58,033 nucleotides of DNA, from NCBI GenBank assembly GCA_020723385.1, contig DYIZ01000019.1, forward strand, positions 1-58,033. The letters are read 5' to 3'. The first letter of the stretch is position 1; each line of letters starts with the position of its first letter. The position numbers and the translations under genes were made by a program. This stretch comes from Candidatus Aquidulcis sp. (GTDB taxonomy: Bacteria; Chloroflexota; Anaerolineae; Anaerolineales; UBA4823). Shown here piece after piece: positions 42,757 through 44,562 of the stretch. Under the pieces are notes generated by a model. That model saw only the letters and a program-made list of their open reading frames with translations, was not told where the DNA came from and ran no database searches.

Positions 42757-43194
42757 GTGCCCGACGTCAAACGATTCAGCCTGGCTAAACCCACATTACA
42801 GACGCGGTTCCGCATTGATTTCGATTGGTGGCGTCAGACCGATAATGACTGGCGGGTGTACCTGCAAAGTCTGCTATGCTCCGATCATCAACAAGCCTTT
42901 GCCCAGGCGGGCAGTGACGAGATGGTAGACTGGGTTGACCCGGAAACCGCCGAAGTTCAACGAGTGGATGGCCTGCAGCACGTCTTGATATCACACTGCG
43001 CCAAGGTGCCAGGTTTCATCACAGAACATACCGCCATGGTAGACGCAGTTTTTCGTCTGTTCCTTTCGAATGGCAATGCGCCGTTGACGCCACTCGAGAT
43101 GGCCGGTCTGTTGGGCCGCTCGGGTGATGTGATTTTGCGTATGTTGACCGGGGCGCGCATTTATCGCGGCGTGCGGCCGGTTATGGAAGGATAA
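42757..43194 (+). CDS. Lineage-type hypothetical protein
   Basis: The 145-residue protein starts at GTG 42757 (MPDVKRFSLAKPTLQTRFRIDFDWWRQ), behind AGGAGG. The C-terminal part (MVDAVFRLFLSNGNAPLTPLEMAGLLGRSGDVILRMLTGARIYRGVRPV) has a helix-turn-helix-like spacing with a basic end, so DNA binding is possible. No membrane helix. It follows the 528-residue gene and ends only 8 bases before the split tRNA-Arg gene, suggesting that the tRNA is transcribed with it. Confidence 0.7.
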   Translation: MPDVKRFSLAKPTLQTRFRIDFDWWRQTDNDWRVYLQSLLCSDHQQAFAQAGSDEMVDWVDPETAEVQRVDGLQHVLISHCAKVPGFITEHTAMVDAVFRLFLSNGNAPLTPLEMAGLLGRSGDVILRMLTGARIYRGVRPVMEG

Positions 43195-43298
43195 TAGTAC
43201 AGGCCCCTGTAGCTCAATGGACAGAGCAACAGCCTTCTACATTCCGTGGGCCTCACAATGGAAACGCTGTGAGTGTAAGTGGTCAAATTCGGAGAAAC

Positions 43299-43772
43299 CT
43301 AAAGAGAAATCAGATGGTTGTCAAATTCCCAATGGCAGTTAGGACAAAGAGCGATTAGATTATCAAGTGAATTTATCTCGATAAGAGTAGCGGTTTTCGG
43401 AAAGCTGTCAATAGGCTTGATATGGCAAATTTCAATGTGCCTGCTGTAGCCACATCGCTGACACGCTTTAGGCAAAGGTGATTTCATGTATTTATCACGT
43501 GCCAACGACCGAATTCGGGATGAAATTTGATAATTTCTAAGCCGTTGTAAATCTGCCAGAGTCCGCTGTCCCCAGTCTACGGAATTTCGGTTACAGGATT
43601 GACAAACCGTGTGCCGACCGTTGACTGGCGCGCCGCAATACTTGCAAAAGCGTTCTTTCTTTTTCTTTCGAGGAAAACGCCGGTTATTGTAAGTAGTAGC
43701 GCAGGATTTGCAGCAGAATCTTGGATTAGCAGTCTCTTTGCCACAGGATTGACATATCATTTGTGTCTCCAT
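43299..43772 (-). CDS. HNH homing endonuclease, antisense inside intron loop L5
   Basis: This 157-residue protein is encoded opposite to the intron. The HNH core is CQRCGYSRHIEICHIKPI (C104, C107, H117), SLDNLIALCPNCHWEF (N138, C143, C146, H147); the N-terminal half has three more Cys pairs that look like zinc ribbons (CQSC, CCKSC, CKYC with CQSC). It would cut intronless tRNA-Arg(UCU) alleles and drive intron homing. Start: ATG 43772, or ATG 43760, which has GGAG six bases upstream. Its stop and start touch the P5 strands, so the gene occupies all of loop L5. A likely promoter lies at 43815-43843. Base composition is AT-richer than the flanks. Confidence 0.85.
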   Translation of the reverse strand: METQMICQSCGKETANPRFCCKSCATTYNNRRFPRKKKKERFCKYCGAPVNGRHTVCQSCNRNSVDWGQRTLADLQRLRNYQISSRIRSLARDKYMKSPLPKACQRCGYSRHIEICHIKPIDSFPKTATLIEINSLDNLIALCPNCHWEFDNHLISL

Positions 43773-43814
43773 GGTAACCCCGAGCCAAGCTTGAATGGGA
43801 ACGGCAATGTCGTG

Positions 43815-43843
43815 ATTTTACATCATTTGTCTTTTCGGTTCAA
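43815..43843 (-). promoter_or_regulatory. Candidate promoter for the antisense HNH gene
   Basis: On the minus strand, TTGAAC (43843-43838) and TAAAAT (43820-43815) are 17 bases apart. The -35 box coincides with the 3' strand of P6. The start site would be about 36 bases before ATG 43772. Confidence 0.5.
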
Positions 43844-44037
43844 GAAGGTGTAGAGACTAAACGGCCACCACCTAAAACGGCAACGTCATGGTGAAGATAT
43901 AGTCCGAGGAGTTAGGAAACTAACACAAACTTGAAGCTGGTGGTTGTGGGTTCGATCCCCGCCAGGGGCGCCTCGATCCGGTTTTACAATGCCAGCTTTA
44001 CCCTCAATTGGGTGAGGCTGGAATAAGGAGATATACA

Positions 44038-44562
44038 ATGAGCATCGAAAGAAAAGGAGGCTTCAAATTCGCCGGGCAGGATGTGACCGTTGTCGGCGCA
44101 GATATCGCCGCCGGCCAGCCAGCCCCCGAGTTTTCTGCCCACGCTCAAGATTGGTCCACTGTCTTTGGATTGGAGAGCACCAAGGGCAAAGTCCGCATCA
44201 TCGGCTCACTGCCCTCGCTCAATACCAGCGTTTGCGACCGGGAGACGCGTCGTTTTAACTTGGAAGCCGCGTCCCTTGGGGATGATATTGCCATCCTGGT
44301 TGTCAGCATGGACTTGCCGTTCACCCTCAAAAACTGGTGCGGCGCAGCAGGGGTTGATAAAGTTATCACCCTTTCCGATCACATGAAGGCCGAATTTGGC
44401 GAGAAATATGGTGTATTGATCAAGGAGAATCGCACCCTCCGCCGGGCGGTGTTCGTCATTGACCGAAACGACCGCGTCGTTTATACCGCTTACATGCCAG
44501 CCAATAGTGTAGAACCCAATTACGAGGAAGTTCTGGCTGCGGCGAAGGCAGCTATGGCCTGA
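44038..44562 (+). CDS. tpx: Thiol peroxidase (Tpx)
   Basis: The start is the ATG at 44038 (MSIERKGGFKFAGQDVTVVG), behind AAGGAG; the frame opens earlier at 44008. The 174-residue protein has the atypical 2-Cys pattern of Tpx: peroxidatic Cys66 in SLNTSVCDRETRRFN and resolving Cys101 in LKNWCGAAGVDKV. It reduces hydrogen peroxide and alkyl hydroperoxides in the cytoplasm with thioredoxin. It starts 67 bases after the tRNA-Arg gene. Confidence 0.95.
   Translation: MSIERKGGFKFAGQDVTVVGADIAAGQPAPEFSAHAQDWSTVFGLESTKGKVRIIGSLPSLNTSVCDRETRRFNLEAASLGDDIAILVVSMDLPFTLKNWCGAAGVDKVITLSDHMKAEFGEKYGVLIKENRTLRRAVFVIDRNDRVVYTAYMPANSVEPNYEEVLAAAKAAMA

Follow-up and report, generated by a model that had tools for sequence, protein, structure and literature searches.

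An antisense HNH endonuclease gene in the group I intron of a Chloroflexota tRNA-Arg(UCU) gene, and the association of its family with tRNA-Arg genes

Group I introns lacking an open reading frame occur in the anticodon loops of bacterial tRNA genes, as in tRNA-Ile of Azoarcus and tRNA-Leu and tRNA-fMet of cyanobacteria, and the endonuclease I-Ssp6803I, which has a PD-(D/E)XK fold, is encoded on the sense strand. Group I introns of tRNA-Arg(UCU) genes are known from Beggiatoa and Thiomargarita, where they are short and the gene spans about 320 bp (PMC4853749). The endonuclease of cyanobacterial tRNA-fMet introns, I-SspI or I-Ssp6803I, was reported by Bonocora and Shub (2001), cited here as summarised in PMC3984707. 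Antisense homing genes have been described in nuclear rDNA group I introns, such as that of I-DsqI in Didymium (PMC9548176), and collaborative homing was described for the cyanophage psbA gene (Zeng, Bonocora and Shub 2009, as related in PMC2988022 and PMC3984707).

In the window, by which we mean the whole 58,033-nt stretch of DNA analysed, a group I intron of 695 nt (43239-43933) interrupts the tRNA-Arg(UCU) gene at 43203-43970, separating base 36 from base 37, and an HNH endonuclease gene occupies its loop L5 on the opposite strand. The intron resembles the ORF-less bacterial tRNA introns in its anticodon-loop insertion, its short core and a P1 formed with the anticodon, but it differs from the short intron of Beggiatoa and Thiomargarita in carrying this antisense gene. 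With I-Ssp6803I, and with two sense-strand genes found in tRNA-Arg(UCU) introns of other Anaerolineae (L158 and L159, below), it shares the placement of a homing endonuclease gene within a tRNA group I intron and a presumed target in the anticodon region; unlike I-Ssp6803I, the enzyme belongs to the HNH group and is encoded on the - strand, so that it does not class with that enzyme. The introns of the I-DsqI type likewise carry a homing gene in a peripheral loop, encoded on the strand that yields neither the ribozyme nor the host RNA. Those genes, however, encode His-Cys box enzymes, lie in P9 of eukaryotic rDNA introns and involve spliceosomal introns and polyadenylation, whereas here the family matched is HNH_2, the helix is P5 and the host is a bacterial tRNA. 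Group I introns of tRNA-Arg(UCU), endonucleases of tRNA introns and antisense homing genes are each already known separately. In literature of limited coverage, antisense homing genes were found for nuclear rDNA introns only (PMC9548176), the word "antisense" is absent from a review of bacterial group I introns (PMC3984707), and no account was found of a bacterial or phage tRNA intron with an antisense homing gene, nor of an HNH family tied to tRNA-Arg. A first-pass annotation of the window had called the arrangement possibly undescribed, and the literature is in line with this. The features of the locus are as follows.

42757-43194, + strand: upstream 145-aa ORF, kept beside the unsplit tRNA-Arg(UCU) of relatives (tblastn, 28 of 30 loci)
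43203-43238, + strand: tRNA-Arg(UCU) 5' exon, bases 1-36 (layout as in 30 unsplit family orthologues; ARAGORN Arg(tct) on joined exons)
43239-43933, + strand: group I intron, 695 nt, last base G (RF00028, 56.3 bits; covariation among nine related introns)
43236-43250, + strand: P1, UCU|AC (43236-43240) with GUGGG (43246-43250), U36-G at the cut (100% paired in nine introns)
43279-43868, + strand: P3, 43279-43284 with 43863-43868 (100% paired, two-sided change at 4 of 6 pairs)
43290-43782, + strand: P4, 43290-43294 with 43778-43782, one A-C mismatch in the window copy (97.8% paired)
43298-43307, + strand: P5 5' strand, CC 43298-43299 and GAGA 43304-43307 (nine-intron pair count)
43766-43774, + strand: P5 3' strand, UCUC 43766-43769 and GG 43773-43774 (nine-intron pair count)
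43299-43772, - strand: HNH endonuclease gene in L5, antisense to tRNA and ribozyme (PF13391, family invariants, predicted structure)
43855-43904, + strand: P7, the guanosine-binding helix, GACUA 43855-43859 with UAGUC 43900-43904 (100% paired, 2 two-sided pairs)
43869-43893, + strand: P8, 43869-43872 with 43890-43893 (97.2% paired)
43911-43924, + strand: P9, GUUAG-GAAA-CUAAC (97.8% paired, two-sided change at 4 of 5 pairs)
43934-43970, + strand: tRNA-Arg(UCU) 3' exon, bases 37-73, without encoded CCA (unsplit orthologues; ARAGORN on joined exons)
44038-44562, + strand: downstream gene, thiol-peroxidase-like, named from its own sequence only (tblastn, 14 of 30 loci, 61-75% identity)

No tRNA was called when ARAGORN was run plainly on the window. 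When exons 43203-43238 and 43934-43970 are joined, the resulting 73-nt tRNA is recognised as Arg(UCU), and of all the junctions yielding 73 nt only U36 (43238)/G43933 combines the loop CUUCUAA with a terminal G. This junction was chosen because it agrees with the unsplit orthologues, with P1 and with the rule of a terminal G. The intron mode of ARAGORN detects the split gene and misplaces the junction after C35, giving anticodon CUU; this tRNA-Lys, with an intron ending in C, was rejected since the terminal G is absent and the unsplit orthologues have CUUCUAA. Those orthologues come from 30 loci in members of the family, with exactly this loop and with 82-95% identity over the full tRNA, save that the match at one locus covers bases 1-57 only. 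As the neighbouring genes flank the unsplit tRNA in many of these genomes (the upstream one at 28 and the downstream one at 14 of the 30 loci), what the window carries is the allele with the intron, at a locus whose intron-less alleles are known. In lying inside an intron whose site is empty in relatives, the HNH gene has the setting of a homing endonuclease.

The sole Rfam match in the window is to RF00028, at 43226-43926 on the + strand, with 56.3 bits against a gathering threshold of 50 (E 1.2e-11). For the structure, which was drawn on the window sequence, nine introns at the same anticodon-loop position were aligned with the ORF removed, five from tRNA-Arg (the window, L272, L265, L267 and L167) and four from tRNA(CAU) (L151, L166, L171 and L199). 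Across these introns 96.6% of the cells are paired and two-sided changes occur at 36 of 67 pairs, values reached in none of 500 shuffles, and shifting the partners by one base lowers pairing to 41%. The core helices P3, P4, P6, P7 and P8 are all present in the relatives, with two-sided changes in P3, P4 and P7; P6 is paired in 96.3%, and the pairs counted for P5 were 43298-43299/43773-43774 and 43304-43307/43766-43769. P1 of the window, UCU|AC-AUUCC-GU-GGG, has two-sided changes at 3 of its 5 pairs, its counterparts being UCU|AAAA-UCA-UUUU-GGG in L272, UCU|AUG-ACAA-UAU-GGG in L167, CCU|AC-AAAAA-GU-GGG in L267 and CAU|AC-AAA-GU-GUG in L199. The guide therefore follows the anticodon, exons UCU, CCU and CAU facing GGG, GGG and GUG, with the U-G at the cut constant; the support for P3, P7 and P9 is as good. 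An alternative P1 taken from the Rfam alignment, GCCU/GGGC with a cut after U33, was rejected since with the conserved 3' end it would leave a 4-nt anticodon loop; covariation also speaks against it, as L272, L167, L265, L267 and the tRNA-Met introns follow the U36-G register. Subgroup IC3 is plausible for the window intron from its resemblance in short core and anticodon-loop position, RF00028 being without subgroup resolution. The first-pass annotation had proposed a tRNA that is proper only when joined between bases 36 and 37, a U-G pair of P1 at the cut and an intron ending at 43933, and had named an intron-model search as a check. The joined exons and unsplit orthologues bear out the first, U36-G is present in all nine introns, the 3' end agrees with the terminal G and the loop CUUCUAA of the orthologues, and the model score is significant.

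The HNH frame is intact, with a longest reading of 157 aa from an ATG that is the complement of CAU 43770-43772, and of 153 aa from Met5. Residues 104-157 match PF13391 (HNH_2, E 1.2e-10), the N-terminus gives a weak double zinc ribbon match, and every invariant residue of the HNH family is kept. An AlphaFold2 model built with 17 sequences has a mean pLDDT of 94.7, and its best structural matches are to the HNH nucleases VcaM4I, Gme nickase and EcoKMcrA (Z 5.4-5.8 over 67-82 residues, within 66-157), while a sequence search against solved structures gave weak HNH matches only. The TAG stop, the complement of CUA 43299-43301, lies on P5 beside the CC of its 5' strand, and TAG is the stop in all 4 intact Chloroflexota intron copies. 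The UCUCC of the P5 3' strand reads in antisense as GGAG, a Shine-Dalgarno-like sequence 6 nt ahead of Met5 (ATG 43760-43758), and GGAG-ACAGCA-ATG is found in L265 as well; for this reason Met5 (43760) is the likely start rather than Met1 (43772). One stretch of DNA thus serves as helix P5 on one strand and as a ribosome-binding-like sequence and a stop codon on the other. The proposal that the gene is confined to L5 held, the intact - frame lying between the P5 strands; of the accompanying proposal that its stop and start touch P5, the stop stands and the start has moved to the likelier Met5, with GGAG as the antisense of the P5 3' strand. A search for an antisense promoter found none that is convincing, the one sigma-70-like site (43843-43815, - strand) falling within the chance expectation of 1.5 per region. 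This candidate, TTGAAC-17-TAAAAT, is situated roughly 55 nt before the start of the HNH gene, in an L6 that is enlarged.

In order to determine whether the arrangement occurs elsewhere, the HNH alignment was scanned against one genome per species for 84,980 bacterial and archaeal species, giving 17 loci, of which 3 have the same arrangement: an antisense HNH gene in the tRNA-Arg(UCU) intron of another member of the Anaerolineae (L272), and in tRNA-Arg(CCU) introns of two Chloroflexota (L265 and L267), always at site 36/37. The first-pass annotation had suggested looking for the arrangement in other Anaerolineae, and L272 supplies it. A decayed antisense HNH gene with three stops lies inside a tRNA-Arg(UCU) intron at 36/37 in L365/L366, and L167 has an ORF-less relative of the window intron at the same site of tRNA-Arg(UCU). 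Antisense HNH genes were also found in tRNA-Arg(UCU) introns at site 34/35 of phage contigs, namely the mutually related L060 and L121, and L290. All antisense-in-intron cases found are therefore in tRNA-Arg(UCU or CCU), at two splice sites. The Rfam score of the L290 intron is 54.1 bits. L060, L121, L265, L267, L272 and L365 have 28-47 bits (E 0.0015 to 3e-9), the match being to the strand that does not encode HNH, and these scores below gathering probably reflect the long L5 insert. The HNH family is present in 6 of 396 genomes of the class (E 1e-10), L365/L366 being among these finds, and absent from the plasmid collection searched. In these searches the arrangement is rare, as had been supposed, though it is not unique to this genome, being found in other Chloroflexota and in phage contigs.

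Group I introns as such are common in the class, with matches in 76 of 346 genomes; by ARAGORN in intron mode they interrupt tRNAs of many amino acid specificities, and they are present in rRNA genes as well. Two Anaerolineae (L158 in G146 and L159 in G122) have tRNA-Arg(UCU) introns at 34/35 with a sense-strand ORF, that of L159 being PD-(D/E)XK (PF11645, E 6.5e-28), a second enzyme type on the tRNA-Arg(UCU) gene. Others (L138, L148 and L153-L157) have group I introns of 630-663 nt in a 23S-rRNA-like exon context with sense ORFs, one of which was tested and is LAGLIDADG (PF00961, E 7.2e-25). None of these long introns (L138, L148, L153-L157, L158 and L159) has an antisense HNH gene.

It could be that the intron is real and spliced but carries the HNH gene as a passenger whose homing phase is over, with an intact frame but no mobility, and heading for loss. 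The decayed gene in the same kind of intron (L365/L366), the ORF-less version in L167 and the unsplit tRNA of the family members examined all point this way, and the window copy could be intact but inactive. Against this, the window protein retains all of the invariant residues, and divergence from the relatives is concentrated at third codon positions of the antisense frame, which are about twice as divergent as second positions (e.g. 0.65-0.68 versus 0.30-0.43 in Chloroflexota relatives); it is therefore the protein that is conserved. We consider this explanation unlikely.

Free-standing relatives of the enzyme adjoin tRNA genes, which they often overlap or approach to 0-30 bp, and several relative orientations occur. 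After the HNH relatives were collapsed at 60% identity, 47 clusters had a tRNA within 150 bp; the nearest one is Arg(UCU) for 22 of them and Arg(CCU) for 6, or 28/47 together. Among the other tRNAs of the same loci the two make up 24/401 (60% versus 6%, Fisher p 4e-18), and with canonical tRNAs only they are nearest in 17/35 clusters (p 2e-10); the p-values are optimistic given the kinship among clusters, and the contrast is still tenfold. Specificity is non-exclusive, as some free-standing relatives adjoin tRNA-Met, Leu, Ile or Lys. In some loci the free-standing gene lies beside a tRNA gene that itself has an ORF-less intron, either tRNA-Arg(UCU) at 34/35 (L330, L347 and L358) or tRNA(CAU) (L115, L106 and L362). 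In the former three, which are phage contigs, an abiF RNA (RF03085) lies immediately 5' of the intron-bearing tRNA-Arg(UCU) (L330:2126-2162, L347:2124-2160 and L358:2124-2160). For the antisense-in-intron label, a 66-protein tree requires five changes, of which well-supported branches force at least 4. Its phage antisense-in-intron proteins nest among the free-standing neighbours of tRNA-Arg, and resolution is incomplete in the branches close to the window protein. The targets of 34/35 and 36/37 introns are two bases apart. As far as sequence comparison goes, the tie of the family to tRNA-Arg(UCU/CCU) genes is a general one that extends beyond the window.

Such linkage might also arise if phage tRNA clusters were hot spots for mobile genes in general, the HNH gene having come into the intron by chance and having another target. 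Phage tRNA arrays do draw homing genes, as with T4 segB between tRNA genes (PMC2988022), and 12 of 78 nearest tRNAs are CAU, with other anticodons occurring. The enrichment, however, was measured against other tRNAs of the same loci, and the antisense-in-intron cases found are confined to tRNA-Arg(UCU or CCU) at both splice sites, which makes this improbable. SegB, too, is a homing endonuclease that stands free in a phage tRNA region, but it belongs to another nuclease family (GIY-YIG) and has no known tie to introns.

The genome containing the window is 6.43 Mb in 239 contigs, 95.6% complete with 4.5% estimated contamination. A second tRNA-Arg(UCU) was not found among its 41 other tRNAs (RF00005 search and ARAGORN), which is strong and not absolute evidence, because tRNA-Ile(GAU), Ala(UGC) and Asp(GUC) were likewise not found. 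Apart from the gene itself, 29 bp at G000:C68:21795-21823 match the 3' part of tRNA-Arg at 90% and may be an integration scar, and similar partial matches are present in G006, G009 and G030. Once spliced, the tRNA would carry a mismatch, A27-G43, in its anticodon stem (window 43229/43940) where the closest unsplit relatives have G27-U43, and AGA and AGG together make up 10 of 2386 codons in the neighbouring genes. Taken with the A-C mismatch in P4, these observations would fit a dead tRNA gene whose intron no longer splices; this is very improbable, as it is the sole tRNA-Arg(UCU) found, AGA codons are still in use and the core helices are intact. An assembly or binning artefact, in which a phage or other foreign piece was fused to a Chloroflexota contig, would suit the fragmentation and estimated contamination but is extremely improbable, since both exons match unsplit family orthologues, the genes on either side are the family's usual neighbours of tRNA-Arg(UCU), and the arrangement recurs in independent assemblies.

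The best explanation, and in our view the probable one, is collaborative homing, in which ORF-less introns have on several occasions captured HNH enzymes that were pre-adapted to tRNA-Arg genes. The window intron would fold from the + strand, its guide GGG pairing with the anticodon UCU, and splicing in vivo would leave a normal 73-nt tRNA. Once expressed, the HNH enzyme, which has an N-terminal zinc-ribbon region, most likely recognises the unsplit tRNA-Arg gene and cuts or nicks it in the area of the anticodon, and repair off the intron-bearing copy would insert intron and HNH gene together (homing). The enzyme family would predate its association with introns, its free-standing members adjoining tRNA-Arg(UCU/CCU) in phages, and ORF-less introns already in the anticodon loop would have taken up the HNH gene repeatedly and in antisense, in line with the prediction of the collaborative-homing model. 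An antisense position would allow translation from the gene's own transcript and keep ribosomes off the ribozyme, and a captured gene may later decay. As in collaborative homing, a free-standing endonuclease adjoins the gene that it presumably cuts at the intron site (here in 28/47 clusters, against 24/401 among other tRNAs), and its capture would make the intron mobile. The present case differs from that of cyanophage psbA in that the host gene is tRNA-Arg, capture is antisense, and all stages are seen: free, beside an intron-bearing tRNA, inside the intron, and decayed. This suggests that introns repeatedly acquired an enzyme already directed at their own insertion site.

Many phage tRNA-Arg(UCU/CCU) genes, for the most part neighbours of an HNH gene, are rearranged, and no description of this class was found in the literature searched. 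The D-stem encloses the anticodon arm, the order being acceptor stem, short D-stem strand, anticodon arm, other D-stem strand, a D-loop-like UAAUUGG and T arm. The enclosing D-stem is paired in 100% of cells in 16/16 sequences, with two-sided change at 3/3 pairs, and an anticodon-blind search gave 18 rearranged tRNAs, all UCU or CCU. There are 13 more beyond those named here:

L084:2912-2986, - strand: rearranged tRNA-Arg
L092:2908-2982, + strand: rearranged tRNA-Arg
L055:2909-2981, - strand: rearranged tRNA-Arg
L279:2360-2432, - strand: rearranged tRNA-Arg
L261:1406-1483, + strand: rearranged tRNA-Arg of the isolated Erwinia phage Ep030 (OQ603357.1), from the anticodon-blind search

Adjoining the rearranged tRNA-Arg(UCU) of L279 there is an apparent second rearranged tRNA with anticodon UAU, seen by eye only. 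A wider reading, which we offer tentatively as possible but doubtful, is that an HNH lineage specialised on tRNA-Arg(UCU/CCU) has spread among phages and several bacterial phyla, its carriers protecting their own tRNA-Arg by an anticodon-loop intron (with HNH captured in antisense), by flush insertion against the tRNA, or by a rearranged tRNA-Arg in which the D-stem encloses the anticodon arm. The window would then be the intron stage of a conflict over one essential tRNA gene.

The origin of the homing enzymes in self-splicing introns is an open question, to which collaborative homing offers the capture of a pre-aimed free-standing enzyme as an answer. This HNH family displays every stage around one small target defined by its sequence, the anticodon region of tRNA-Arg(UCU/CCU): free by an intact gene, free by an intron-bearing gene, in the intron at two splice sites, and decayed. 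It also extends antisense homing genes to bacterial and phage introns.
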